In this document: positions 29,363-47,222 of the stretch, piece by piece
Position numbering within the stretch: position 1 is the first letter of the stretch
Layout of the letters: every line of letters starts with the position of its first letter
Position numbers and translations under genes: made by a program
Assembly: GCF_001463885.1 (NCBI RefSeq)
Contig: NZ_BBWQ01000020.1
Location: forward strand, 1-64,000
Length of the DNA: 64,000 nt
Source of the DNA: Aureimonas altamirensis
GTDB taxonomy: Bacteria > Pseudomonadota > Alphaproteobacteria > Rhizobiales > Rhizobiaceae
Direction of reading: 5' to 3'
The notes under the pieces: generated by a model
The model's input: the letters and a program-made list of their open reading frames with translations, nothing else
Databases searched by the model: none
What the model was told of the DNA's origin: nothing

Positions 29363-32059
29363 TCACCCGCGCGGCGTACTCAAAAGGGCCAGCGGCACGC
29401 CGTCGAACAGCTCCTCCAGGCGCAGTTCGCGGTCCAGCGTCACCGGTTTTCCCGTAACGGCGTCCGACAGGCGGCGCCCGGCCAGCACGGCCGGCACCAC
29501 CACACGCGTATCCCCGACTGTGATGCCGCTCAGGTCGGAACGCCCGTCCAGAAGCGTCAGGCAAAGGCGGGGCGCCACCACGATTGCCGCATCGTCGCCG
29601 CTCAACCGGGCAAAGGCCAGAAAATGCGATGCAGCCGCGCCTTCCACCTCCAGCGGGAGATAGTCGCCGACGGTGAACAGGCCCGGCCGGGCCCCGCGCG
29701 CCGCAAGGCCGACCGCCGTCAACCGCGCCTTGGCGACGCCGTCGCGCCAGTGCGCCGCCGCGTCGCGGACCGGCTCGCCACTGCGCAGCGCCGCCAGGCG
29801 GGCATCGAAGTCGACGAGCCGGCGATTGTCCGGGTCGACGAGGCTGTTGTCGTAGAATTCCGTCCCCTGATAGATATCCGGCACGCCGGGCGCACCCAGC
29901 CGCACCAGTGTCTGGGACAGGCTCGTCAGCGCACCCGCAGCAACGAAGGGCTGTACCCGCTCCCAGAAGGGTTCAAGAAAAGCCGGTTCGAAGGCGGCGT
30001 CCACGAAGGCAAGCAGAGCCTCTTCGTAAGGCTCGTTGGGCGCGGTCCAGCTGGTGAACTGCTTGGCCTCGCGCACCGCCTTCTCCATGAAGGCACGCAT
30101 CCGCTGGCGGATCTCGTCGCGGGCCGTGGCATCCCTGGGGTCGAAGTCGGCAGGCAGGACGCCCAGCAAGGACTGGTAGAAGCCCCATTCGGTCGCCGGG
30201 TCCGGCGACAGGCCACCATCGTCGAGGCTGACCCGGTACGGCGCCAGCGCATCGGCCGCATAGCGCACGATCTCGTTCCAGGCGTCGGGCGCCTCGCTGA
30301 TCGTGTAGATGCGGGCCCGCGCATCTTCACCGCGCTTGGTATCGTGCGTCGACAGTGCCAGGAGCCCTTCGGGCTGGTCTTCCAGCCGGATCTGCATCGC
30401 CGTGTGGAAAGCGTCGATATCGGCCCCGTAATGGTCGGGCTCTCCTCCGACTTCGTTGAGGGCGATCAGGCGGTTCCACCGGTAGAAGACGGTATCCTCG
30501 ACCGCCTTGGCCATCACCGCACCGGTGGTCTGCTGGAAGCGGCGGGTGAAGTCGAGTGCGCCGGCCATGGCTGCGCCATCCTCGAAGTCGAGTTTCAAGA
30601 GCCGACCGACGAAGGCGACCGGCTCGTCCGCTTCCACCTTGCGGGCGGCCTGCACCCATGCGACCGCGCCATCGATGATCTCGATGTCTTCGGCCGGAAT
30701 GCCGTCGATACCGGAATAGGTCCGATAGACCGGCAGCGCCGTCGCGAATTCGAGGATCGAGCGTTGCAGCGTGTCGGGCCCGAAGTCGCGCGTCGCCAGG
30801 CCCTGGCGGGCGACCGAAAGGGCTATGTCGGTCAGCACAGCCAGTTCGCCGGCAAGGTTGTGGCTGAAGATGTAGCGCTTCTGCTTGTGAACCTGCGCTT
30901 CCAGCGTCGCCTCGCCGCCGACGAAGGCATCGTAGGCCTGCGTCATCGCCGCTTCCTGCGCGGCATCGACATAAAGGCCGGAGATTGCGGAGATGAACTC
31001 GTAGCCGGTGGTGCCCTCGACATTCCAGCTGCGCCGCAGGCGCTCCGGTCCCGTCAGGATCTTCTCAACATGGATCACCGCCTCGCTGGCCCCGGCCCTG
31101 TCCAGCACGGTCCTGAGATCGCCCAGATAGCCCTTCGGATCGGCGACGCCGTCGACATGGTCGATGCGGATACCGTCGAGCCGCCCCTCGCGCGCCAGCC
31201 GCACTATGGTGCGATGGCTTTCGCGGAAGACGCGCCGGACTTCCTGCCTAACCCCGATGAGGTCGGCGATCTCGAAGAAGCGGCGATAGGACAGCTTCTC
31301 CCGCGCAAGCCGCCACCAGGCCAGGCGCCAGTTCTGGCGCTCGTGCAGAGCATGCAATGCCGCCTTGTCGCCATTCACCTTGGCGACGGCCTGCTCGAAG
31401 GCGGCCAGAAAGTCGTGATCTTCCAGAAGTTCGGCGATGCGCTCGACGAGGTCGTCGCCATCGGCCGGCTCGGCACCGGCGAACAGCCGGATCAGCGGCT
31501 CGCGCTGGGGATGATCGAGAAAGCCGAAAATAGCGGGGAAGGTGCGCGGATCGACCGGCAGCTCGTAACCCGAAGTGGAAAAGCGCAGCTCACGACGGCC
31601 GATATCCAGGACGACGGCAAGATCGCCGTTTTCGAGCGCCTCCCCATAGGGCTGGCCCAGAACGGGGATGAGGATCTTTTCCGCCTCCCACGAGATGTCG
31701 AAGGTGCCCGCATGACGGCTCTCCGAACCCCAGCGCAGCACATCCTCCCACCAGCCATTGGCCGGCGAGACGCCCATATGGTTGGGCACGAAGTCCAGGA
31801 TCAGGCCAAGCCCCGCATCGCGCAGGGCATAAGACAAGGCGTCAAAGCCGGCATCGCCGCCAAGCTCGGGCTCGAAGCGGTTATAGTCGACCACGTCATA
31901 GCCGTGGGTGGAGCCGGGCGACGCCTCGAAGACCGGCGAGGCGTAGAAATGGCTTATGCCGAGCTCGGTCAGATAAGGCACCAGGGCGCGGGCATCGTCG
32001 AAGCCGACGCCATTGCGAAATTGCAGCCGATAGGTTGCGGACAGCGTGCGGCTGGTCAT
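29363..32059 (-). CDS. treY: Malto-oligosyltrehalose synthase
   Basis: An 898-residue glycoside hydrolase family 13 enzyme that converts the reducing-end linkage of maltodextrin to an alpha,alpha-1,1 bond. It opens with TYRLQFRNGVGFDDARALVPYLTELGISH-type sequence (here cited by its start), has VPNHMGV, the nucleophile Asp in GIRIDHVDGVADP (about residue 298) and the acid/base Glu in HVEKILTG (about 331). The length is normal for TreY, larger than other family-13 enzymes. Start and malQ stop overlap in ATGA. With TreZ it forms the trehalose-from-glycogen route. Confidence 0.94.
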   Translation of the reverse strand: MTSRTLSATYRLQFRNGVGFDDARALVPYLTELGISHFYASPVFEASPGSTHGYDVVDYNRFEPELGGDAGFDALSYALRDAGLGLILDFVPNHMGVSPANGWWEDVLRWGSESRHAGTFDISWEAEKILIPVLGQPYGEALENGDLAVVLDIGRRELRFSTSGYELPVDPRTFPAIFGFLDHPQREPLIRLFAGAEPADGDDLVERIAELLEDHDFLAAFEQAVAKVNGDKAALHALHERQNWRLAWWRLAREKLSYRRFFEIADLIGVRQEVRRVFRESHRTIVRLAREGRLDGIRIDHVDGVADPKGYLGDLRTVLDRAGASEAVIHVEKILTGPERLRRSWNVEGTTGYEFISAISGLYVDAAQEAAMTQAYDAFVGGEATLEAQVHKQKRYIFSHNLAGELAVLTDIALSVARQGLATRDFGPDTLQRSILEFATALPVYRTYSGIDGIPAEDIEIIDGAVAWVQAARKVEADEPVAFVGRLLKLDFEDGAAMAGALDFTRRFQQTTGAVMAKAVEDTVFYRWNRLIALNEVGGEPDHYGADIDAFHTAMQIRLEDQPEGLLALSTHDTKRGEDARARIYTISEAPDAWNEIVRYAADALAPYRVSLDDGGLSPDPATEWGFYQSLLGVLPADFDPRDATARDEIRQRMRAFMEKAVREAKQFTSWTAPNEPYEEALLAFVDAAFEPAFLEPFWERVQPFVAAGALTSLSQTLVRLGAPGVPDIYQGTEFYDNSLVDPDNRRLVDFDARLAALRSGEPVRDAAAHWRDGVAKARLTAVGLAARGARPGLFTVGDYLPLEVEGAAASHFLAFARLSGDDAAIVVAPRLCLTLLDGRSDLSGITVGDTRVVVPAVLAGRRLSDAVTGKPVTLDRELRLEELFDGVPLALLSTPRG

Positions 32060-33900
32060 GTGTGTCGGGGCCTTTCCTCGCGCATGGCGGCAGCCATGGC
32101 CTTGAATATCGGATGGTCTTCCAGGGCTTCGAGGGGGACTTCGCCGCGAATGCGCCAGTTGGGGTAGGCGTCGGTGGTGCCGGGCAGGTTGGGCTGGCGC
32201 AACGCCATCACCATGTCGTCCAGTTGCACGGCAAAGAGATGCGAGCGCGTCCGCGCCGCAAAGCGATGGATGGCCAGGGCCAGGTCCAGGGGCAGCGCGT
32301 CCGGCAGCGCCGACCGGTCGTTCAGCGGCCCGGCGAAATCGTCCGGCAACAACCCTTCCAGCCGCAGGGCGTGCAGCAGGGCATGGCGGTCATTGTCGCG
32401 TTCGGCCCTGTCGCGCCGCGTCGATACTTCGTCCTGGCGGCCGGCATCCGCCCGCAAGGCGATGTCGCTTGCGGCCCACCAGCCGGCCAGCGTGGCCAGA
32501 TCGTGGGTAGAGATGCAGGCCAGCGAGCCGACCGGATACTGCGCGGGGGCTATGAAGCCTTCCCACTCCCGTTTTTCAAAATAGAGCACCCGATAGGACA
32601 GGATGTTGGCCGCCTTCATCACCGGCCGGAACCCTTCGGGCACGGTGCCGAGATCTTCGCCGATGACGATGCAGCCATTGGCGCGCGACGCCCTGGCCGC
32701 CACATCCACCATATCGCCCAGCGGATAGCGGACATACCCGCCGTCGCGGGCATCATGCCCGCGCGCGATCCACCACAGGCGGGCCAGCCCCATGACATGA
32801 TCGATCCGCACGGCACCGGCATTCTTCATGAGGGCGTCGTAGGCTTCGGCCAATGGCCTGTAGTTGCGCTTTGCCAGCGCCTCCGGCGACAGGGGCGCCA
32901 ACCCCCAGTCCTGGCCGGCGGCGTTGAACATGTCCGGCGGCGAACCGACGCGCGCATCCGGCATCGTCACGTCCGGGTCTGCCCACGTCTCCGCCCCATC
33001 GGGCGAGACGCCAACCGCGAAATCGAGATAAAGCCCGATGCTCATGCCCGCCGCCAGCGCCCGCTTCTGCGCGTTGCGAAGCTGCGTTTCGGCCGTCTGC
33101 TGCAACCATATGTGGAACAGGATGTCGCTCGCGTGCTCCGCCGCGAAGGCGCGCACCGCGTCGTGCTCCGGGTGCCGGAAGGGTTCCGGCCAACCATGCC
33201 AACCGGCGCTGCCGCCGGCGGCAGCGAAGTGCATGGACAGCGCCTCGAACAGGGCGAAATTTTCGATTGCGTCTGCATGCCGCTCGCAAAACGCGCTCAG
33301 CGCCGGCTCGTCCACGGCCTCGCCGCGATCGAAGATGCGACGCAGCACCGCCGCGCGGGCCCGGCCGGCGCGCGGATAGTCGATCAGGTCGCCGTCGAGG
33401 CCGTCGAACAGCGACGGATCTTCCGCCGCAAGCTCCGCCATCGCCTCGGCGCCGCCCGGCAGAACGTCTACCGCAATGTAAAACGGGTTCAGGAAACGGC
33501 GGGTCGATGGCGAATAGGGGCTGAAATGCCCGGGATTGGCGAAGAACAGCGCATGCAGCGGGTTGACGCCCAGGAATGCCGCCCCGGCCCTTCCGGCAAT
33601 CTCGGCTAGATGGCCGAGATCCTCGAAATCGCCGAGGCCGACGGTGCGGGAGGATCGCAGGGCATAAAGCTGGCAGGTCACCCCCCAGGCCGGCTTGCCC
33701 TGCGGTGCGACGCAGGCTAGGTCCGGCACATGGCGGGCCGCCTCGAAGCGGCCCGGCTGGGCCGCGTCCGGGTCGATCCCCATGACGGTCAGGAGCGAGC
33801 GAAGCGCCGTCTCGCTCAGGCTCCTCTCATCCCCCGTCTCCGAAGTATAATGCGTCTGTATTCCGTGGCTTCTCGCAAGAGACACCAGATCATGCGTCAT
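32056..33900 (-). CDS. malQ: 4-alpha-glucanotransferase (amylomaltase)
   Basis: A 614-residue glycoside hydrolase family 77 enzyme that transfers maltodextrin segments. Family features are VTCQLYALRSSRTVGLGDF, FLGVNPLHALF, SPYSPSTRRFLNPFYI, the nucleophile Asp in VRIDHVMGLARLWW (about residue 366) and GEDLGTVP (about 413). It overlaps treZ and treY by 4 bases on either side, so the three are translationally coupled. It probably remodels maltodextrins into chains long enough for TreY, or recycles the short ones. Confidence 0.94.
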   Translation of the reverse strand: MTHDLVSLARSHGIQTHYTSETGDERSLSETALRSLLTVMGIDPDAAQPGRFEAARHVPDLACVAPQGKPAWGVTCQLYALRSSRTVGLGDFEDLGHLAEIAGRAGAAFLGVNPLHALFFANPGHFSPYSPSTRRFLNPFYIAVDVLPGGAEAMAELAAEDPSLFDGLDGDLIDYPRAGRARAAVLRRIFDRGEAVDEPALSAFCERHADAIENFALFEALSMHFAAAGGSAGWHGWPEPFRHPEHDAVRAFAAEHASDILFHIWLQQTAETQLRNAQKRALAAGMSIGLYLDFAVGVSPDGAETWADPDVTMPDARVGSPPDMFNAAGQDWGLAPLSPEALAKRNYRPLAEAYDALMKNAGAVRIDHVMGLARLWWIARGHDARDGGYVRYPLGDMVDVAARASRANGCIVIGEDLGTVPEGFRPVMKAANILSYRVLYFEKREWEGFIAPAQYPVGSLACISTHDLATLAGWWAASDIALRADAGRQDEVSTRRDRAERDNDRHALLHALRLEGLLPDDFAGPLNDRSALPDALPLDLALAIHRFAARTRSHLFAVQLDDMVMALRQPNLPGTTDAYPNWRIRGEVPLEALEDHPIFKAMAAAMREERPRHT

Positions 33901-35780
33901 TCGGCCAGCCCCTCGATCACATCATGGCGACCGAGCATAAAGCCGACGCTGAATCCGCGCATCCGTCCCTCCCGCAAATCGTCGAACGTCCCGCCATGAT
34001 TTGCGAAGACCTCCGTTGCCCCTTCCAGAAGGCTTGGATCGAAATCCTCGCCGATGTCCCATGGCGCGTCGTCCAGATTGGCGAAGCAGTGGTAGAAGCG
34101 GCCAGGCGCAAGCTCCCAGGAAACGATCATCGCCCGCCCGTCGACCAGCGCCTTTCCGGTGCCGCCGGGTGCGTCGGCCAGAAGGGGGAACAGATGGTCG
34201 CGGCGCGCTTCCAGAAGCTGCTGCGTGACCTGCAACCGCCGCCGGTTTACCGGCCGTTCCTTCAACGACCATTCCAGCCGCGAGGTCAGGAAGGTGGATT
34301 CCGCATTGGGATCGGGGAAGACCTCTTGCGCGTGCGGGTCCTCGAACGCCGAGAACTTGGCAAACTCGGCCTTGCGTCCGCGCGATACGGCAGCTCCCAA
34401 CTCCCCATCGAAATCCGTGAAGAAACAGAATGAGTTGCAATCGCCGAACTCGTCGCCCTGGAACATCAGCGGAATCTGCGGCCCCAGCAGCAGAAGCGCC
34501 TGCAGACAATCGAAGGCCCGCGCCGAACTGAGCGAGCGGAGGCGGTCGCCGAAGGCGCGATTGCCGATCTGGTCGTGGTTCTGCAGGAAATTCACGAAGG
34601 CGGTCGGCGGCAAATGGTCGGACGTTTCCCCGACATCGCGGTCCCGATGCGGGGAATGTTCGCCCTGATAGACGAAGCCCGTCGCCAGCGCCGTTGCGAT
34701 CTGCTCCACCGTGTCAAACTCGTAGTCGATGTAGTAGCCTTCGCGGTCGTTGGTCGCCAGCACATGCGCCGCATGGTGGAAATCGTCGTTCCACTCGCCG
34801 GAGATGACGGGGACGGAGCCATCCGCGCCCCGCTCGATGAAGCGGGTGATGTTGCGTTCGTCTTCGGTGGTCAGATGGACGTGGCGGTCCGGGAAGGCGG
34901 CGCGCACACGTTTGGCCAGTTCCTCCACCAGCGGCGTGTCGGTCGTATCGTGGATGGAATCGATGGCGTCCAGGCGCAGGCCGTCGATCCGGTACTCTTC
35001 CAGCCAGTACAGCGCATTCTCGATCATGAAATCGCGCACGGCCGGCTCGTCATAGGCGATGGCCGGACCCCATGGCGTATGTATTTCCGATTGGAAGAAG
35101 TCCGGCAGGTAGGAGGGGATGTAGTTCCCGTCCGGTCCGAAGTGATTGTAGACGACGTCCAGGAACACCATCAGCCCACGCTCGTGCGCCGCATCCACCA
35201 GCCGCTTCAGGCCGCGATGGCCGCCATAGACGCCGTGCGGGCAGTACAGCAGGACACCGTCATAGCCCCAGCCGCGCCGACCGCCGAACTCGGCAACCGG
35301 CAGCAGCTCGATAGCCGTAATGCCCGTGGCCTTGAGATGGTCGAGCCTTTCGATGGCGCTGTCGAACGTTCCTTCGTCGGTGAAGGTGCCGACATGCATT
35401 TCGTAGAAGACCGTCTCGTGCCAAGGCCGGCCGCGCCATGCCGAGGTGCGCCATTCATAGGCGTGCGGGTCCACCAGCCGGGACCGGCTGTGCACATCGA
35501 AGGTCTGCTCGCGCGAGGCTGGGTCCGGCACCGGCTTGCCACCGTCGACGCGGAATCCATAGGCACCGCCCACGGGTACCGCATCCGTCTTAAGACGCCA
35601 CCATCCCTCGGCGTCCTTGTCCATCGCCAGGAATGCCGTTTCGTCCCCTTCGCCGGCCGCAAGCTCTACCGTTGCTGCATGCGGCGCCCAGAGCTGGAAC
35701 AACGCGCCGCCATCGACCGGCCGCGCCCCCCAACTCGTCTGACAGGAAAAGCGCGTTGCGATCTGTCCACCCTCGGCCAT
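33897..35780 (-). CDS. treZ: Malto-oligosyltrehalose trehalohydrolase
   Basis: A 627-residue family-13 hydrolase that releases trehalose from maltooligosyl-trehalose. An N-terminal carbohydrate-binding-like domain (GALFQLWAPHAATVELA) is followed by the barrel with EMHVGTFTDEGTF, DVVYNHFGPDGNY, the nucleophile Asp in GLRLDAIDSIHD (about residue 270) and the Glu in LTTEDERN (about 304). GPDGNY after NHF and the ELLPVAEFGG segment separate TreZ from glycogen branching enzyme. It starts 14 bases after the metallopeptidase gene and overlaps malQ by 4 bases. Confidence 0.94.
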   Translation of the reverse strand: MAEGGQIATRFSCQTSWGARPVDGGALFQLWAPHAATVELAAGEGDETAFLAMDKDAEGWWRLKTDAVPVGGAYGFRVDGGKPVPDPASREQTFDVHSRSRLVDPHAYEWRTSAWRGRPWHETVFYEMHVGTFTDEGTFDSAIERLDHLKATGITAIELLPVAEFGGRRGWGYDGVLLYCPHGVYGGHRGLKRLVDAAHERGLMVFLDVVYNHFGPDGNYIPSYLPDFFQSEIHTPWGPAIAYDEPAVRDFMIENALYWLEEYRIDGLRLDAIDSIHDTTDTPLVEELAKRVRAAFPDRHVHLTTEDERNITRFIERGADGSVPVISGEWNDDFHHAAHVLATNDREGYYIDYEFDTVEQIATALATGFVYQGEHSPHRDRDVGETSDHLPPTAFVNFLQNHDQIGNRAFGDRLRSLSSARAFDCLQALLLLGPQIPLMFQGDEFGDCNSFCFFTDFDGELGAAVSRGRKAEFAKFSAFEDPHAQEVFPDPNAESTFLTSRLEWSLKERPVNRRRLQVTQQLLEARRDHLFPLLADAPGGTGKALVDGRAMIVSWELAPGRFYHCFANLDDAPWDIGEDFDPSLLEGATEVFANHGGTFDDLREGRMRGFSVGFMLGRHDVIEGLAE

Positions 35781-35794
35781 GAAATATTTCCTTC

Positions 35795-36925
35795 CTAGCC
35801 AGCGGCCGTTTCGGGTTGCTGACTTTCGACAAGCTCTTCAGAAAGTCCGGCCCGTGCCTCCGTGCCGATGCGCCCATGCACAAGGTCGTGGATGAAGCCG
35901 AGCTTCTGGATCACCACCGGCGACAGGACGAACGGATAGGCATCGTTGAGGCCCATGGACCGGTTCAGCGCGTTGATCGCAGCCGATAGCGCCAGCCAGG
36001 CCTCGGCTATCTGGTCGATGGTCGTGTTCTGGCCGTAGATGTCGAAATCCAGCTCCGTCGTCAGGATGCCGTCCCGGTCCAGCCGCGGTGACAGCGTCAT
36101 GCCGAGAGCGCCGCCCGTTTCCAGCGTATCCACGATATGCAGGTAGTGGGCCCAGGTCTCGGCGAAGTCTTCCCAGGGGTGCGCACCGGCATAGGACGAT
36201 ACGAAATTGTCCTGCCAGTTTGGCTGCGGGCCGTTGGCGTAGTGGGTTTGCAGGGCCTGCCCGTAATCCTGCGAATCATCGCCGAAGACGGCTCGGCAGG
36301 CTTCCAGGGCATTGCCGTCCCGCACCAGCCGGTCCCAGTACCAGTGGCCGACCTCATGGCGCATATGGCCGAGCAGCGTTCTATAGGGCTCGCCCAGCTC
36401 GGCGCGCCGCTTCTCGCGTTCGGCGTCGTCCGCCTCTGCCAGCGCGATGGTGATGAGGCCGCGATCATGCCCCGTCATGACGTTGCCGCCCGTTTCAGGG
36501 TCATGCGTCAGGAAATCGAAGCCAAGCCCTTCCGGATCCTCCGCACGGGTCATCAGCGGCAGTCGCAGGCGCAGCAGCGAGTAGAACAGCCGCTGCTTGG
36601 CAAACTCCATCTTCTGCCACAAGGCGACATTCTGGGGGTCGGACAGATCCGGCACCGTCAGGTTGAAGCGCGAGGCGATGGACAGCGTCTCCGGGCTGTC
36701 GGATGGCAGCAGCCAGTTGCAGACCCCGTAGCGATAATTGTCGCAGTACTTCCAGTGCTCGCCATTGGCGCGGCGGCCAACCGATACGAAGTATTGGCCG
36801 TCCGGCTCCAGGGCCAGCATGCGGTTGGTCAGGGGCTCGTAACCGAGCGCGTGTCCGCAGCGTTCGCAGACCGTGTTGGTGAAGTAGACCACCTGATCGC
36901 AGGAGGGGCATGAAAAGAGCTTCAT
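35795..36925 (-). CDS. Zinc-ribbon putative metallopeptidase (COG4307-like)
   Basis: A 376-residue protein with an N-terminal four-cysteine zinc ribbon (C6, C9, C20, C23), a middle region with [12 protein letters not shown], and a metalloprotease-like H190-E-V-G-H194 motif followed by a conserved [13 protein letters not shown] helix likely to supply the third zinc ligand. It matches the uncharacterised family annotated as putative zinc-binding metallopeptidase. I prefer Met at 36925 over an in-frame GTG at 36937 that has no ribosome site. It is the first gene of the treZ-malQ-treY operon and is divergent from the transglutaminase/ATP-grasp operon, so it could serve either. Its peptide substrate is unknown. 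Confidence 0.85.
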
Positions 36926-37106
36926 GGCGAGAGGCACCTTCGAAAGCAGCGGCGGGGGGTTGATCGGCGGTCAGGAATGTGTGGGCGAACGTTCGGTTCC
37001 AAATGCCACGTCATGCTGCGATGCAAACGCTTGTGGCGGGGAACGGTTCGGCTATGGTTCGATAATAATTTTCGGAACCAGCAGGTCGAAGGCGCGTACC
37101 GAACCC
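36926..37106. promoter_or_regulatory. Shared divergent promoter region of the trehalose and peptide-ligase operons
   Basis: These 181 bases separate two divergent operons. They contain a perfect 10-base palindrome CGAACGTTCG at 36986-36995 and several GGTTC half-sites, one facing a GAACC near 37075. No clear sigma-70 pair is visible. These repeats are candidates for a common regulator. Confidence 0.35.
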
Positions 37107-40100
37107 ATGTCGATTCTTGCCGCACTGAACCACGTCACGCATTACCGCTATGACCGCCCGGTCCGGCTTGCTCCGCAAACGATACGGCTTCGTCCGGCCC
37201 CGCATTCGCGCACAAGGGTTCCGTCCTACGCGCTGAAGATCACCCCGGCCAACCACTTCATCAACTGGCAGCAGGACCCGTTCGGCAACTACCTCGCCCG
37301 GATCGTCTTCCCGGAGACGACGACCGAGTTCCGCATCGAGGTGGACCTCGTTGCCGACATGTCGGTCTATAACCCCTTCGACTTCTTCATCGAGGACAGC
37401 GCGGAGAAGGCCCCGTTCACCTACTCCGAAGACCTGCACGAGGAACTGAAGCCCTATCTGGCCCACGATCCCGCCGGGCCGCTTCTGCAGACGTTCTTGT
37501 CCGAAATCGACACGACGCCGATCACCACCATCGATTTCCTCGTGGCGATGAACCGCAAGGTCGAACAGACGGTCGACTATGTGATCCGCATGGAGCCCGG
37601 CGTCCAGACACCGGAAGAGACGCTGGCCCGCCGGTCCGGCTCCTGCCGCGACTCCGCCTGGCTGCTGGTGCAGACCTTCCGGCACCTCGGCCTCGCCGCC
37701 CGCTTCGTCTCCGGCTATCTAATTCAGTTGAAGCCAGACACCGTCGCCCTCGACGGGCCGGCCGGAACCGACCATGATTTCACCGACCTGCATGCCTGGA
37801 CGGAGGTGTATGTTCCGGGCGCCGGCTGGATCGGCCTCGACCCGACATCGGGCCTCCTGACAGGCGAAAGCCACATCCCGCTGGCCGCGACGCCGCACTT
37901 CCGGTCGGCCGCGCCGATCTCTGGCGCCGTCGACTATGCCGAAGTCGAGTTCCATTTCGACATGACGGTACGGCGCATCGCCGAACGGCCCCGCGTCTCG
38001 TACCCGTTCCCCGACGAAAGCTGGCAGTCGCTGGATGCGCTGGGCGAGGCCATCGACGCCGATCTTGCCGCAGCCGACGTGCGCCTGACCATGGGCGGCG
38101 AGCCCACTTTCGTTTCCATCGACGATTTCGAGGCGCCGGAATGGAACGCCGAGGCGACCGGGCCGGCCAAGCAGGGCCTTGCGGACGATCTTATCCGCCG
38201 CCTTCGCACACGCTTTGCCGATGGCGGCTTTCTGCATTTTGGCCAGGGCAAATGGTATCCCGGCGAAACCCTGCCGCGCTGGACCTACTCGCTCTACTGG
38301 CGCAAGGACGGCAAGCCGATCTGGAAGAACCCCGCCTTGATCGCCGAGGACGCGCACAGCGATACGGCGACCATCGAAGCGGCCGAAACCCTGTTGCGGA
38401 CCGTCGCCCAGACGCTGGGCGTCGACCCTGCCAATGCGGAGCCGGCCTTCGAGGATCCGTCTTACTGGCTGGTGCGCGAAGCGCGGCTGCCGGACAATGT
38501 CGATCCGACGGATTCCAAGCTGGACGACCCCGAGGAGCGCGCCCGGCTGGCGCGCGTCTTCGACAGGGGGCTGCACAAGCCGTCCGGCATGGTGCTGCCG
38601 GTGCAGTCATGGCAGGCCGCCGACCAGGCCGGCGGCCGGCGCTGGATTTCCGAAAAGTGGCGCACCCGGCGCGGCAAGCTGTTCCTGGTGCCGGGGGACA
38701 GTTCGGTCGGCTATCGCCTGCCCCTGACCGCATTGTCGCATATTCCGCAGTCCTCGTACCCCTACGTCAACCCGGCCGACCCGATGCAGCCTTTCCCGGC
38801 CCTGCCCGAGCCGGCCAATTTCGGCCGGCCCCAGCCGCGTATCGAGGCTGCGGCGCCGCAGCGGGCCCTTGCCCCGGCCGCGATCGACGAGATCGCCGGC
38901 TCTGTCCGCACGGCGCTGTCCATCGAGCCGAAGGACGGCAAGCTCTGTGTCTTCATGCCGCCGGTGGCCACGGTGGATGAATATCTGGATCTGCTCGCGG
39001 CCATCGAGGATGCCGCCGAAGCGGTGTCCATGCCGATCCGGATTGAGGGCTATCCGCCGCCCTTCGATCCGCGCATCAACGTCATCCGCGTCGCGCCCGA
39101 TCCCGGCGTCATCGAAGTCAACGTCCATCCGGCCGCAAGCTGGCGCGAGGCGGTGTCGATCACGACGGGCGTCTACGAAGACGCGCGCCAGTCGCGCCTC
39201 GGCACGGAAAAGTTCATGGTGGACGGGCGGCATGTCGGCACCGGCGGCGGCAACCACGTGGTTGTCGGCGGGGCGACGCCGCTCGACAGTCCCTTCCTGC
39301 GCCGGCCCGATCTGTTGAAATCGCTGGTGCTGTACTGGCAACGGCATCCGGCGCTGTCCTACCTGTTCTCGGGCATGTTCATCGGCCCCACCAGCCAGGC
39401 TCCGCGCATCGACGACGCGCGTCACGACAGCCTTTACGAGCTGGAGATCGCCATGGCCAACGTGCCGGCGCCGGGTGCCGGCACCGCGCCGCCGCCCTGG
39501 CTCGTGGACCGTCTGTTCCGCAACCTCTTGACCGATGTGACCGGCAATACGCACCGCTCCGAAATCTGCATCGACAAACTGTTTTCGCCCGATGGCCCCA
39601 CCGGCCGCCTCGGCCTGGTGGAGTTTCGCGGCTTCGAGATGCCGCCGGACCCGAAGATGTCGCTGGCCCAGCAATTGCTGGTGCGGGCGCTGATCGCCTG
39701 GTTCTGGAAGGAGCCGCAGGACGGGCCATGCACGCGCTGGGGCACAAGCCTGCACGACCGGTTCATGCTGCCCGCCTTCGTCTGGCGCGACCTCCTGTCC
39801 GTCCTCGGCGATCTGGAGCGCGCGGGCTATCCGGTCCGTCCCGAATGGTTCGAGGCGCAGCACGAATTCCGCTTTCCGTTCTGCGGCCGCATCGAGCGTC
39901 AGGGCCTGTCGCTGGAGTTGCGACAGGCGCTCGAGCCGTGGCACGTCATGGGCGAAACGGGCGCCATCGGCGGCACCGTCCGCTTCGTGGACTCTTCGGT
40001 GGAGCGGCTGCAGGTGAAGCTTTCCGGCTTCGACCCGGCGCGCCATGCGGTAACGTGCAACGGGCGTTTCGTGCCGCTGACGGCAACGGGCACAAGCGGC

Positions 40101-40427
40101 GAGGCCGTGGCAGGCGTGCGCTACAAGGCGTGGCAACCGGCCAGCGGCCTGCATCCCACCCTTCCGGTCAATGCGCCGCTGACCTTCGACATCTACGATC
40201 GATGGTCGGGCCGCTCGCTGGGCGGCTGCGTCTATCACGTCGCCCATCCCGGCGGCCGCAACTACGAAACCTTCCCCGTCAACGCCTATGAAGCGGAGGC
40301 GCGAAGGCTCGCCCGGTTCGAGGATATCGGCCATACGCCGGGGCGTTTCCAGCCCGCGCGGGAACTGCCCGATCCGTCCTTCCCCCTGACGCTCGACCTG
40401 AGGCGTCCGAGCCACCTTGCTTTCTGA
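37107..40427 (+). CDS. Transglutaminase-like protease domain fused to DUF2126
   Basis: A 1106-residue cytoplasmic protein. Residues about 1-110 are a transglutaminase N-terminal domain ([20 protein letters not shown] is typical). The transglutaminase/cysteine protease core follows with the full triad C180 (SGSCRDSAW), H229 (LHAWTEVY) and D245 (GLDPTSG), so the enzyme should be active. From about residue 325 it is DUF2126, opening with [21 protein letters not shown] and containing GQGKWYPGE and FRGFEMPP. This fusion is the signature large protein of a predicted peptide-ligation system with ATP-grasp/alpha-E partners. Start at ATG 37107; the frame is open upstream but lies in the promoter region. 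The downstream gene overlaps by 11 bases. Confidence 0.9.
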
Positions 40428-42645
40428 CGCCCGCCCCCCGCGGCACGGCGCGCCGCAACCCTATCGGCCGGCCGGCATCGACGAGATGGTCGATGCGGGT
40501 GGCGTCGTGCGTCCGCACTACCGGAGCCTCGTCGACGCGCTTGCGACGATGCCCGTAGCAGAGCAGGTGCGGCGTCAGGGCCAGGCCGAGCAATATCTGC
40601 GCGAGGCCGGCGTCTACTATCGCGATACGGCGGAAGGCGCGGGTGCGACGGCGGCCGAGCATGCCTGGCCGCTGGCCTTCCTGCCGCTGGTCATCGACGC
40701 CGCCGAGTGGCGCGGGCTGGAGGCGGCGTTGATCCAGCGGGTCCGCTTTCTGGAAAGCCTTTTGACCGACGTCTACGGCGACCGCGCTCTGGTAACCGAA
40801 GGCCTCCTGCCCGGGACGGTGCTTGCCGGCAACCGCGAGTTCCTGCACCCGCTTGCCAACCAGGCGCATAACGGCCTGCCGCTGCTCGGCTTCGTCGCCA
40901 TGGACCTGATGCGCGGCGCCGACGGCGTCTGGCGCCTTCTCGGCGACCGGACCCAGGCACCGTCGGGCGCGGGTTTCGCCCTCGAAAACCGCGTGGCCAC
41001 CGCAAGAGCCTTCCCCGAGCTCGTCCGGGATGGGCGGGTGCGCCGGCTGGCCGGCTTCTTCAAGGGCTTCAGGGATGCGCTGAATGCGCGCAATGCGGCC
41101 CTCGGCGGCGAATCGATCGGCATTCTCAGCCCCGGCCTGATGAGCGAAACGTCGTACGAACACGCCTATCTGGCCCGCTATCTCGGCTTTCAGCTCGTCG
41201 AAGGCGGCGACCTGACCGTGCGGCAGGACCGTGTCTTCGTGCGCAGCGTCGAGGGCGACCGGCCCGTCGCCGTCCTCTGGCGAAGGCTGGACGCGGATTT
41301 CGCCGATCCTGTCGAGTTGAACGGCGACAGCCGCATCGGCGCGGCCGGATTGTCGCGTAGCGTCCGCGCCGGCAACCTTCTGATGGTCAACGCGCTGGGC
41401 TCCGGCTTTCTCGAAGATCCATCCCTTGCGCCGTACATGGACACGCTCGCGGAAAGGCTGATCGGCGAAAGGCTGCTCATGCGGCCGGCCCAGCAGACGT
41501 CCGTGCCCTCCACCGCGCCGGTCCTGTCTTCGGGTTCGCTGTCGCCGCGGCCCGTGACGCTGCGGGTATTCCTGGCGCGCGGTCGCGACGGATGGCATGC
41601 CATGCCGGGCGGCTTTGCCCGCGTGGCGGAAGTCGCGCTGCCCGGCGCAGCCATCCGCGCCGGGGGCCGCTCGGTGGATGTGTGGGTGATGTCGGACGAG
41701 CCCCAATCGGATCTCACCTTGCTGTCGCGCGACGCGGTCTTTTCCCGGCGGCTTCCCGGGGCGCTGCCGGCGCGCGCGGCAGACAATCTGTTCTGGCTGG
41801 GGCGGCAGGTCGAGCGGCTGGAGCAGGCCAGCCGCATCATGCGCACGCATCAGGGGCGGCTGGCGGATGCGGCGCCGCTTGCCGAAGTGGACAAGGCGTT
41901 ACGCGGCGCCCTGATGCGTTTCGGGCTGGATGCGGACAGCCCATTGCCCGGCCTTGCCGCGCTGGCCGGCATGGCCTGCGACATCGCGGCCCGCATCCGC
42001 GACCGGTTTTCACCGGATGGCTGGCGCGTCCTTTCGGAAATCCCGCCGCTTCTGGCGCAGGCCCGGCCCGCAACGCATGCCGAGGCCGCCGCCGTCGCCA
42101 ACGGCATTCTTGGCCGGCTGTCGGGTTTCACCGGCCTTGTCGAAGAAAACATGTACCGGCTGAACGGCTGGCGCTTCCTGCAATGCGGCCGCAGGATCGA
42201 AAGGGGCATCGCATTCTGCGAATCGCTGGCCGACCTGGTCCGCCCCGATCTGGGCGACGAGGCTTTGGACGCCATCCTTGAGCTGGCCGACAGCCGCCTC
42301 ACCTATCGCCGCCGCTACTCGGTGGAGCTCTGGCGGCATGCGGTGCTGGACCTTTCCGTGCTCGATCCGCTCAACCCGCGTTCGGTAACCTTCCTTGCCG
42401 AAGAACTGGATGCCATCATCCACGCATTGCCGGGTTTCCAGGCCGGCGAGCCGCTGACGCAGCCCGGCCGGCGCATCGCCCGGCTGGCCGTCCGCCTGCG
42501 CACGGCGGACCCGCGCGAGGTCGACGCCGCCTTCCTGAAGCGCGTTGCGCAGGACATGCGCGATATTTCCGAACTTCTGTCCGAGCGGTATTTCGCGCCG
42601 GTGGCAGCGCATCCGTCGGCCTATGGCGGAAGCACGGTAGAATAG
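40417..42645 (+). CDS. Circularly permuted ATP-grasp domain fused to alpha-E domain
   Basis: A 742-residue fusion starting at a TTG inside the end of the preceding gene. Residues about 20-425 match the circularly permuted ATP-grasp family ([28 protein letters not shown], cited by its start; [66 protein letters not shown]). Residues about 440-735 are the alpha-helical alpha-E domain ([19 protein letters not shown]). In many genomes the two are separate adjacent genes. ATP-grasp domains form amide bonds from a carboxylate and an amine with ATP. Comparative genomics predicts a peptide or small-molecule ligase, but no product is established. Confidence 0.88.
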
Positions 42646-42649
42646 GCCC

Positions 42650-43561
42650 ATGCGTTACGATATCCGCCTTCGCATCGGCTACGACTATGCCTTTCCCGTC
42701 CGCAGTGCCCATCATCTGCTGCGGGTTGCGCCGCGCATCGACCGCGGGCAGACGATCCATGCGCTGTCGCTCGATCTTGCCCCGAAGCCGGACGAGACAC
42801 TTCAGGAGAGCTGCTTTTTCGGCAACCGGACGCACCACCTTCTGCTGAGCCGGCCGCACACTGCGCTGTCGGTCGAGATGCGCGCCCGGGTCGAGGTCCG
42901 GCGCATGGAGCCCGACCTTTCGCAAGGGCCGGACATCGCAACCCTTGCCGACCTGGCGCGGCGGACCCGCGCCGAAAGCGGCCAGAGCCCGATTTACCAT
43001 CTGGCAGCCAGCCGCATCGTGGCTCCCCTGCCGGAAGCGGGCGTCTTCGTGTCCGAAAGCCTGAGCGGCCGGTCGCCCGGCCTCGGCGTTCTTGCCGTCG
43101 CGCAGCGCATTGCCGGCGAGTTCACCTACGAGCCGGGCTTTTCGTCGCTGGCCACGACGCCGGCGCAGACCCTGTCCAGCCGCCGCGGCGTCTGTCAGGA
43201 TTTCGCGCATCTGATGATCGCGGGCCTGCGGCAGGCCGGCATTCCGGCGGCCTATGTTTCGGGCTTCCTGCGGACGGACCCGCCGCCCGGCCAGCCGCGC
43301 ATCGAAGGCGCCGATGCCATGCATGCCTGGATCGAGGCGTGGCTCGGCCCCGACCTCGGCTGGGTCGGCTTCGACCCGACCAATGGCTGCCTTGCCGGCG
43401 AAGGTCATGTGGCCGTGGCCTTCGGCCGCGACTACGCAGATGTTGCGCCGGTTGCTGGTGTCGTCACCACCACCGGCGCGCAGGCCACCGATCATGCGGT
43501 CGACGTGGTGCCCGAAAACGAGCCGCCGGCCTCGTGGCAGGCTTTGCTCGCCGCGTCGTGA
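42650..43561 (+). CDS. Transglutaminase-like cysteine peptidase
   Basis: A 303-residue protein with a transglutaminase N-terminal region (MRYDIRLRIGYDYAFPVRSAHHLLRV, cited by its start) and a catalytic core with C182 (RRGVCQDFAH), H225 (AMHAWIEAW) and D242 (GFDPTNG). The triad spacing is close to that of the large fusion protein upstream. It lacks a signal peptide, so it acts in the cytoplasm. It starts 4 bases after the ATP-grasp/alpha-E gene and completes the three-gene operon. It may hydrolyse or transfer the amide bonds the ligase makes. Confidence 0.88.
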   Translation: MRYDIRLRIGYDYAFPVRSAHHLLRVAPRIDRGQTIHALSLDLAPKPDETLQESCFFGNRTHHLLLSRPHTALSVEMRARVEVRRMEPDLSQGPDIATLADLARRTRAESGQSPIYHLAASRIVAPLPEAGVFVSESLSGRSPGLGVLAVAQRIAGEFTYEPGFSSLATTPAQTLSSRRGVCQDFAHLMIAGLRQAGIPAAYVSGFLRTDPPPGQPRIEGADAMHAWIEAWLGPDLGWVGFDPTNGCLAGEGHVAVAFGRDYADVAPVAGVVTTTGAQATDHAVDVVPENEPPASWQALLAAS

Positions 43562-45450: not shown

Positions 45451-46731
45451 TTGCCCCCGATATCCGACACCGTGGCGTCCGGCACCCATGCCGGACTCGA
45501 CTTCGGCACGACCAATTCCACGCTTGGCATTGCGGCGCGCGGCGGGTCTCCGCGTCTTCTGCCCGTCGAGGGCGACGCGCTGACCATTCCCTCGGCGCTG
45601 TTCTTCAGCCTCGAGGACGGCCACACCTATTTCGGCCGGAAGGCCGTATTGGAATATGTCGAGGGCGCGGAAGGCCGCTTCATGCGCGCCCTGAAAAGCA
45701 TACTCGGCACATCGCTCATGAATGAGACGACGCTTGTCGGGCGCGAGCGCAAGAGCTTCCAGGATCTTATCGGGCGTTTCCTGCGCCACATGCGGGAAAG
45801 GCTGGAATCGGCCGGCGTGCAGGCCGACAAGGTCGTGCTGGGGCGTCCGGTGCACTTCATCGACGACGACCCGGCCGCCGATGCCACGGCAGAGGCGCAA
45901 CTGGCAGCCGCGGCGCGCGCCGAAGGCTTCGCCCATGTCGAGTTCCAGTACGAGCCGGTCGCCGCCGCGCTGTACCGGGAGTCGATGCTGGATGCCGAGG
46001 AACTGGCCCTGATCGTCGATATCGGCGGCGGCACATCCGACTTTTCGGTGGTGCGCCTGTCACCGGAGCGCGCCCGCGCGCATGACCGGTCGTCCGATAT
46101 CCTCGCCTCCACCGGCGTGCATGTCGGCGGCACGGATTTCGACCGGCTGCTGAGCATACGCCATGTCATGCCGCATTTCGGGCTGGGAAGCCTGTACGCC
46201 GACGGCAAGCGCAGCCTGCCCGTCTGGTACTTCAACGACATGGCGACGTGGCATCGCATCAACCTGCTCTACACGCCGAAGGTCCTGCGGGACATGCGCG
46301 ACCTGGAGCGTGCCGCGGCGGAACCCGAGCGTCTGGACCGGTTTCGCCATCTCGTGGAACATCGCTCCGGGCATCGGCTGGCCGGCGCCGTCGAGGCCGG
46401 CAAGATCCGGCTGACGGACGCGCCGGAAACCGAAATCGTCCTCGACGAGCCCGGTCTCGACTTTTCCCTGACCGTCTCACGGGTCGCCTTCGAGGATGCC
46501 ACGCGCGATCTCGTCGGCAAAATCCAGGCCAGCCTTGCAGAGGCCCTGGCCACGGCGGGCGTTTCGGCAGAGGCCGTCGACAGTGTCGTCCTGACGGGTG
46601 GCGGCGCGGAAGTGCCGGCCGTGCGCATGGCCGCCACGGCATCCCTGCCGCATGCGCGGGTCATCCGCTCCGATGCCTTCGGCAGCGTCGGCCTCGGCCT
46701 GGCGCTGGATGCCGCGCGGCGGTTTGGATAA
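45451..46731 (+). CDS. Hsp70-family ATPase without substrate-binding domain (YegD-like)
   Basis: A 426-residue protein covering an actin/Hsp70-type nucleotide-binding domain: phosphate-1 motif GLDFGTTNST (residues 15-24), phosphate-2 motif VDIGGGTSDFSVV, and adenosine motif LTGGGAEVPAVR near residue 385. The C-terminal peptide-binding domain of DnaK is missing, as in E. coli YegD. It starts at a TTG 15 bases after lepA with GGACGGA upstream, so it is probably cotranscribed with lepA. Its client is unknown; YegD-like proteins may be specialised chaperones. Confidence 0.87.
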   Translation: MPPISDTVASGTHAGLDFGTTNSTLGIAARGGSPRLLPVEGDALTIPSALFFSLEDGHTYFGRKAVLEYVEGAEGRFMRALKSILGTSLMNETTLVGRERKSFQDLIGRFLRHMRERLESAGVQADKVVLGRPVHFIDDDPAADATAEAQLAAAARAEGFAHVEFQYEPVAAALYRESMLDAEELALIVDIGGGTSDFSVVRLSPERARAHDRSSDILASTGVHVGGTDFDRLLSIRHVMPHFGLGSLYADGKRSLPVWYFNDMATWHRINLLYTPKVLRDMRDLERAAAEPERLDRFRHLVEHRSGHRLAGAVEAGKIRLTDAPETEIVLDEPGLDFSLTVSRVAFEDATRDLVGKIQASLAEALATAGVSAEAVDSVVLTGGGAEVPAVRMAATASLPHARVIRSDAFGSVGLGLALDAARRFG

Positions 46732-46796
46732 AGCTTTCGTTCCAAACGCAAGGCGCGGCGATTCGAGGATGGCCGGGCCACCAGGGAAGGAAACCC

Positions 46797-47222
46797 ATGA
46801 CACTGACGCTCGACCACGCCCGCAAGATCATCTCCGCCAGCCTTGCCAAGGCGGCCGAAGGCAAGTTCAAGCCGCTGACCGTGGCCGTGCTGGATGCCGG
46901 CGGTGCGCTGATTGCCCTGGAGCGGCAGGACGGCACGTCGCGCATGCGCCCCGACATCGCCATCGGCAAGGCCAATGGCTGCATCGCGATGGGCCTCGGA
47001 AGCCGCGCCTTGTTCAAGCGCGCGGAAGAGCAGCCCTATTTCATCCAGGCAATGAACAGCCTTGCCGGCGGCAGCCTGGTGCCGGTGCCGGGCGGTGTCC
47101 TGATCCGCAATGACGGCGCGATCATCGGCGCGGTCGGCATCACCGGCGACACGTCCGACAATGACGAAGCTGCCGCGATCGCGGGCATCGAGGCGGCGGG
47201 TTTCACGGCTGACGTAGGCTGA
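46797..47222 (+). CDS. GlcG/HbpS family (DUF336) protein
   Basis: A 141-residue protein of the GlcG/HbpS fold family. It starts with LTLDHARKIISASLAKA, contains VAVLDAGGALIALERQDG, and ends with GAVGITGDTSDNDEAAAIAGIEAAG. The ATG at 46797 has AGGGAAGG upstream. Family members occur with glycolate oxidase genes, diol dehydratase clusters and haem-binding systems, so function is not fixed. Here it is followed 6 bases later by a P-loop kinase gene. Confidence 0.85.
   Translation: MTLTLDHARKIISASLAKAAEGKFKPLTVAVLDAGGALIALERQDGTSRMRPDIAIGKANGCIAMGLGSRALFKRAEEQPYFIQAMNSLAGGSLVPVPGGVLIRNDGAIIGAVGITGDTSDNDEAAAIAGIEAAGFTADVG

Follow-up and report, generated by a model that had tools for sequence, protein, structure and literature searches.

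A predicted pseudo-ATP-grasp fused to alpha-E, encoded beside a DUF2126 putative amidoligase in Aureimonas altamirensis

Gene organization of the locus

A four-gene locus was analyzed in the window, which denotes here the whole stretch of 64,000 nucleotides of Aureimonas altamirensis DNA under study. The genes and their features are as follows.

35795..36937, minus strand: zinc-ribbon (PF10005) and Peptidase_Mx (PF15887) protein with an HEVGH motif (profile matches)
37107..40427, with the ORF open from 36924, plus strand: transglutaminase-like domain and DUF2126, a putative GS-fold amidoligase (Pfam profiles)
40417..42645, plus strand: pseudo-ATP-grasp fused to alpha-E, 742 aa (profiles, alignment, and model)
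40684..41628, plus strand: remnant of a circularly permuted ATP-grasp domain, with about 60 residues missing at a junction near 41485
40942..40950, plus strand: G176-D177-R178 replacing the metal-binding E-x-N (alignment)
41764..42594, plus strand: alpha-E domain (PF04168; profile match)
42650..43561, plus strand: second transglutaminase-like protein with the triad C182/H225/D242

An earlier note on this DNA had described these four genes as a predicted peptide-ligation system. Its gene positions, order, and strands agreed with the coordinates and with the profile matches, which scored 1321 bits for DUF2126 (cut-off 27), 334 bits for CP_ATPgrasp_2, and 174 bits for Alpha-E. The divergent peptidase was also confirmed on the minus strand, with HEVGH at residue 194, two CxxC motifs, a zinc ribbon, and a match to the Peptidase_Mx profile. 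Both Cys-His-Asp triads were present at the claimed residues. In the DUF2126 protein the triad is C180/H229/D245 when counted from 37107, near which homology begins, and C241/H290/D306 in the longer frame that reaches back to 36924; in the separate transglutaminase it is C182/H225/D242. The 11-base overlap and the 4-base gap of the plus-strand trio match the coordinates, given a putative TTG start at 40417, and no intergenic gap in the trio exceeds 4 bases. None of the four locus proteins was named by NCBIfam above its cut-off.

Tblastn searches with eight window proteins demonstrated that the order peptidase, DUF2126, fusion, and transglutaminase was the same in all 11 genus loci that span it (L007–L017); locus L020, inside which the contig ends, was left out of this count. 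The domain matches of the locus and its genus-wide order are more than chance. The same searches placed treZ and malQ next to the four-gene set in genus loci. In the window, the minus-strand stretch 29363–35780 next to the peptidase holds Alpha-amylase-family, 4-alpha-glucanotransferase, and CBM48 amylase genes, which adjoin the peptidase across the genus and are probably treY, malQ, and treZ, as named from their Pfam matches. The gene treY also appears in a nitrogen table of P. putida (PMC8050072), perhaps by coincidence. On the plus strand, an HSP70/MreB-like protein and then an HbpS-like protein are encoded at 45451–47222, downstream of a presumed lepA.

The ATP site of fused and stand-alone ATP-grasps

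The ATP-grasp part of the window fusion covers positions 1–268 and 331–374 of CP_ATPgrasp_2 (PF14403), and Pfam positions 269–330 are absent. The domain accordingly measures 945 bases compared with 1131 in stand-alone copies. Direct alignment identified the absent segment as VVKEVHGSGGYG of the stand-alone relatives, which ruled out an intact ATP-grasp with a poor profile match. An assembly error behind the gap was ruled out as well, since two other genomes of the genus (G005 with locus L010, and G012 with locus L017) share the 742-codon frame and have an ATP-grasp span identical to that of the window. When the features of PF14403 were inspected, the ATP-binding lysine and the glycine-rich loop were lacking, and in the alignment the metal motif LEDN of stand-alone relatives reads LGDR in the window, so that E-x-N is lost. 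We take the lysine, the glycine loop, and E-x-N to be the ATP and metal binders, as in glutathione synthetases, and enzymes of that group were among the structural matches of the fusion model.

That model (AlphaFold2, 73 sequences, mean pLDDT 91.4) had as its top structural match 3n6x, a putative glutathionylspermidine synthase from Methylobacillus flagellatus, which is also the closest match of the ATP-grasp part by sequence and its only PDB relative found in this way. Residues 342–392 of 3n6x have no partner in the window protein. In addition, 3n6x is a 474-residue chain without alpha-E, whereas the window ATP-grasp is fused to alpha-E. The descent from CP_ATPgrasp_2 and its fold are still recognizable in the fusion from the profile, from the sequence and structure match to 3n6x, and from the domain tree. 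The earlier note was right about a single ATP-grasp/alpha-E chain with a permuted fold, but the ATP-grasp domain in it is incomplete. We consider it nearly certain that the window ATP-grasp lacks a canonical ATP site, and very unlikely that it forms amides by the usual chemistry.

To place the window protein among its relatives, 140 domains of at least 180 bits, from 131 of 143 sources (142 loci and the window), were compared. Classing by profile score gave 121 fusion-type and 19 stand-alone domains; these rows are not independent, and many are near relatives. Among the stand-alone domains, E, N, and K were each kept in 18/19 and all three in 17/19; the two exceptions together make up a single broken Halomonas gene, one half each. 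Fusion-type domains kept E in 1/121, K in 8/121, and N or all three residues in 0/121, with R at the N position in 114/121. One fusion-type row (the second piece of L106) is a fragment without the motif positions, and the metal motif was lost in all 120 rows readable at N, the window included. The contrast as an artefact of profile-score classing was ruled out, since selecting the frames that also encode alpha-E led to the same picture (n = 100; E in 1, N in 0, K in 5, and all three in 0). In the other 21 fusion-type frames no alpha-E was visible, mostly because the end of a contig or of a sequence excerpt had clipped them.

The fusion motifs were read in Pseudomonadota, one Acidobacteriota, and one Actinomycetota, and E and N were also lost in the acidobacterial L133, the actinobacterial L134, and beta- and gammaproteobacterial fusions. 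The lysine, in contrast to E and N, was kept in eight fusions (L024, L036, L043, L133, L138, L140, L142, and L143), mostly outside the relatives of the window. ATP-site loss is thus graded, and the pattern suggests that loss of the metal motif came first, with erosion of the loop following later on or elsewhere. In a tree built from 106 thinned domains by a quick method, with a midpoint root and some long branches, one branch with an SH-aLRT of 100 separated fusions from stand-alones. The distance between the two anchors of the loop region was 94–96 residues in the window clade, L040, and L135, compared with 155–157 in stand-alones and a median of 160 among fusions; it ranged from 94 to 147 within the genus. 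L040 and L135 share 93.5% identity, whereas identity between L040 and the window is 39%; the loop segment was therefore probably removed almost completely on at least two occasions. On the whole, ligase activity is likely to be generally absent from the fusion subfamily.

Database records give both gene sets the same name, "circularly permuted type 2 ATP-grasp protein." In L135, from a plasmid of Halomonas sp. PA16-9, DUF2126, the stand-alone ATP-grasp, a transglutaminase, and Mx are each split over two frames, either because the genes are truly decaying or because of errors in sequencing.

An open frame of 742 codons is common to the three species that have the deletion. Among them, dN/dS was 0.160–0.200 for the ATP-grasp part, 0.053–0.107 for alpha-E, and 0.080–0.094 for DUF2126, and it was 0.063–0.071 for the intact stand-alone ATP-grasp of the same three genomes. 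Over 73 aligned fusions, D177, R178, R289, D297, and the PGG and D-x-W positions were invariant or nearly so. The fusion is a maintained pseudo-ATP-grasp under purifying selection, with a constraint weaker than that on its neighbors.

Two other accounts of the fused domain were weighed against these data. The model of the earlier note, an active ATP-dependent amidoligase, draws on the recognizable fold, the CP_ATPgrasp_2 score of 334 bits, and 3n6x as the best structural match; with the lysine, the glycine loop, and the metal ligands all missing, the role of amide maker is withdrawn from the fused ATP-grasp, and we regard such activity as scarcely credible unless the protein binds ATP in some novel manner. 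The loss of ATP-binding residues found in the window had been set beforehand as counter-evidence to joint ligation. At the other extreme, the ATP-grasp part could be merely decaying and the protein now only an alpha-E carrier. It does evolve faster than alpha-E and than the stand-alone enzyme, and its loop is shorter in the genus than in stand-alones (94–147 versus 155–157 residues). However, its dN/dS of 0.160–0.200 is far below 1, the listed positions are invariant or nearly so across the 73 fusions, and the model folds with high confidence; mere decay is therefore improbable.

Partner genes in this and other genomes

The earlier note overlooked that DUF2126 is itself a predicted amidoligase. 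It is described as a putative amidoligase in Pfam, and the transglutaminase fusion has been assigned, together with GCS2 and PafA, to the carboxylate-amine ligase superfamily (PMC2588565). This superfamily includes the Pup ligase, and the same source favors peptide products over protein tags. The transglutaminase–carboxylate-amine ligase family represented by Rv2566 joins the same domains as the DUF2126 protein of the window, and its predicted role is peptide synthesis, not protein conjugation; the section on this family mentions neither an ATP-grasp neighbor nor a lost ATP site (PMC2588565). Of 17 chosen polar positions in the DUF2126 domain, 15 were invariant in 131/131 proteins and two in 130/131, which demonstrates constraint rather than catalysis because the positions were picked for being conserved. 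The transglutaminase triad of the DUF2126 protein was kept in 131/131, and the separate transglutaminases retained C in 110/111, H in 111/111, and D in 109/111. The model of the DUF2126 protein (mean pLDDT 78.6) had transglutaminases as its leading matches, followed by YbdK (prob 0.96, E 0.012) and, more weakly, by GmaS and glutamine synthetases (prob 0.47–0.72). These matches lend weak support, in the expected direction, to a GS fold of DUF2126; by sequence, the protein had transglutaminase matches only among solved structures. The C-terminal DUF2126 domain, a predicted amidoligase, is the remaining ligase candidate of the locus.

A second ligase candidate lies outside the window. Contig C5 of the same genome carries an intact stand-alone ATP-grasp, alpha-E, and an Anbu-like proteasome subunit in one row, and its ATP-grasp may, from its sequence, be such a ligase. 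The only two Bact_transglu_N matches of the genome are inside the window, and with this profile no match was found near the stand-alone ATP-grasp in 13/13 genus genomes; in the order-level relatives G013, G016, and G017, Bact_transglu_N does adjoin it. The Anbu operon described elsewhere comprises ATP-grasp, alpha-E, transglutaminase, and Anbu, families that are common to the window locus or genome (PMC5666114, PMC6376114). Unlike that operon, the window locus has no Anbu but does have DUF2126, a metallopeptidase, two transglutaminase domains, and a fused ATP-grasp whose ATP site is lost. In Yersinia, the stand-alone ATP-grasp of the Anbu operon freed phosphate from ATP, no peptidase activity of Anbu was detected, and pull-downs of the operon proteins gave no specific interaction and no complex (PMC6376114).

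The distribution of these genes was surveyed in 150 Pseudomonadota genomes (completeness of at least 90 requested), in which DUF2126 was found in 46, the fusion in 45, the stand-alone ATP-grasp in 84, and Peptidase_Mx in 24. DUF2126 and the fusion occurred together in 42/150, DUF2126 alone in 4, and the fusion alone in 3 (Fisher 7e-29, kinship ignored). The co-occurrence proposed by the earlier note was thus upheld for this pair, which was present in 42/46 DUF2126 genomes and within 10 kb in 42/42 genomes having both. In one of the four DUF2126 genomes in which no fusion was found, DUF2126 is at a contig end. In G056, G084, and G096 (2.3–2.9 Mb genomes), no fusion was found and DUF2126 directly adjoins Anbu; such genomes may have a version of the system that lacks the pseudo-ligase. 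The stand-alone ATP-grasp was present in 45/45 fusion and 46/46 DUF2126 genomes, within 10 kb of DUF2126 in 26/46 and farther off or on another contig in 20/46. Anbu was found in 28/46 DUF2126 genomes and within 10 kb in 11/46; as 18/46 had no match, it is not obligatory. Peptidase_Mx occurred in 17/46 and within 10 kb in only 6/46, and the metallopeptidase largely does not hold as a member of the set, contrary to the earlier proposal.

Among the best 80 named loci by DUF2126 alignment, mostly from Alphaproteobacteria, the fusion was found in 75 and Mx in 7; L099 is cut by a contig end, and no fusion was found in L054 (contig end), L055, L079, and L120. The stand-alone ATP-grasp, alpha-E, DUF2126, the fusion, and the transglutaminase form one-row clusters in Caballeronia (L136 and L144, with Mx in the row too), on an Enterobacter plasmid (L142), and in Burkholderia (L140 and L143). 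Judged by its gene content, the window genome seems to resemble such a cluster split in two. The 90.7-kb IncFII plasmid of Enterobacter roggenkampii that carries L142 has IS6/IS26-type transposases on both sides of the cluster.

Nitrogen control has been reported for related operons. In B. cenocepacia H111, I35_5080-83 encode, in this order, ATP-grasp, alpha-E, transglutaminase, and a large transglutaminase protein; when nitrogen was limiting, an ntrC mutant expressed these genes at a lower level (log2 -6.0 to -9.4; PMC5491218). In the Burkholderia locus L143, from another strain, the large protein is DUF2126, followed by the fusion and a transglutaminase, and by analogy with this order I35_5083 may be the DUF2126 protein. 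In P. putida, genes of the Anbu operon (PP_2685-2688) were induced in connection with nitrogen (PMC8050072, PMC7801951), although PP_2685 itself was up by only 1.12 in the first of the data columns in PMC7801951. Anbu operon proteins were steady under various other conditions (PMC5666114). On an Acidithiobacillus caldus megaplasmid (L141), DUF2126, the stand-alone ATP-grasp, alpha-E, ntrC, glnL, and an aliphatic amidase lie within 20 kb; the DUF2126 frame there has no transglutaminase match, and a separate transglutaminase frame is found upstream. A sigma-54 scan at 36850–37130 of the window found no good site, the best one having 8/12 matches, and nitrogen control of the window locus was not upheld. 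B. cenocepacia has one NtrC-controlled locus, whereas the window genome has two loci and no good sigma-54 site was found.

Possible function of the gene set

We propose, with a probability of roughly 0.55, that the window locus is the accessory arm of an amidoligase system of the Anbu type and that in this genome it has become separated from the core of that system. An amide or isopeptide bond would be formed with ATP by the intact ATP-grasp, by DUF2126, or by both, and the pseudo-ATP-grasp/alpha-E chain would assist without catalysis, either by holding the substrate or by regulating the active ligase. Transfer or cleavage of the bond would fall to the transglutaminase domains, and Anbu and, where present, the metallopeptidase would trim the product. 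The make-and-break set of the earlier note could survive in this form, with DUF2126 and the remote stand-alone ATP-grasp as possible makers, but not by way of the fused ATP-grasp.

Alternatively, the DUF2126 locus could be self-contained, with DUF2126 as the sole ligase, the pseudo-ATP-grasp/alpha-E chain as its partner, and the stand-alone/Anbu operon as a separate paralogous system of the same genomes. Such independence would fit the proximity of DUF2126 and the fusion within 10 kb in 42/42 genomes, the 20/46 genomes in which the stand-alone copy is farther off or on another contig, and the DUF2126 dN/dS of 0.080–0.094. It sits poorly with the presence of the stand-alone ATP-grasp in all 46 DUF2126 and all 45 fusion genomes, with its location within 10 kb of DUF2126 in 26/46 and that of Anbu in 11, and with the genus Anbu operon, which lacks its transglutaminase as judged by Bact_transglu_N; we hold it to be conceivable, though rather unlikely. 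A bolder version of the accessory-arm reading is doubtful. It would make the stand-alone ATP-grasp and the pseudo-ATP-grasp/alpha-E chain an obligate pair of active and dead ligase, with DUF2126 as a second ligase, which attach and remove an amide-linked group on which Anbu and the transglutaminases act in nitrogen starvation. The tagging or storage chemistry distinct from pupylation that forms part of it is just as speculative.

Iyer 2009 is said to be the main source of the old prediction of these genes as a peptide or amide system. The Anbu, ATP-grasp, alpha-E, and transglutaminase genes have been discussed since 2008–2009 (PMC5666114, PMC6376114), and the function of Anbu was still not known in 2021. 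Our literature search, which did not reach subscription papers, found no paper on an inactive ATP-grasp or naming DUF2126. Apparently, neither the pseudo-ligase subfamily nor the finding that it occurs alongside a stand-alone copy has been reported before, although Iyer 2009 may mention inactive members.

The loss of the ATP site is readable from sequence alone and separates two gene sets that share one record label. Ligase assays on the fusion will not succeed if it is a pseudoenzyme; DUF2126 and the stand-alone ATP-grasp are then the enzymes that merit testing, and the fusion may be their partner. The window clade and a Halomonas-type lineage offer natural variants lacking the site for genetics. 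A pseudo-ligase kept beside intact partner enzymes would thus shift what should be tested for the function of this gene set.
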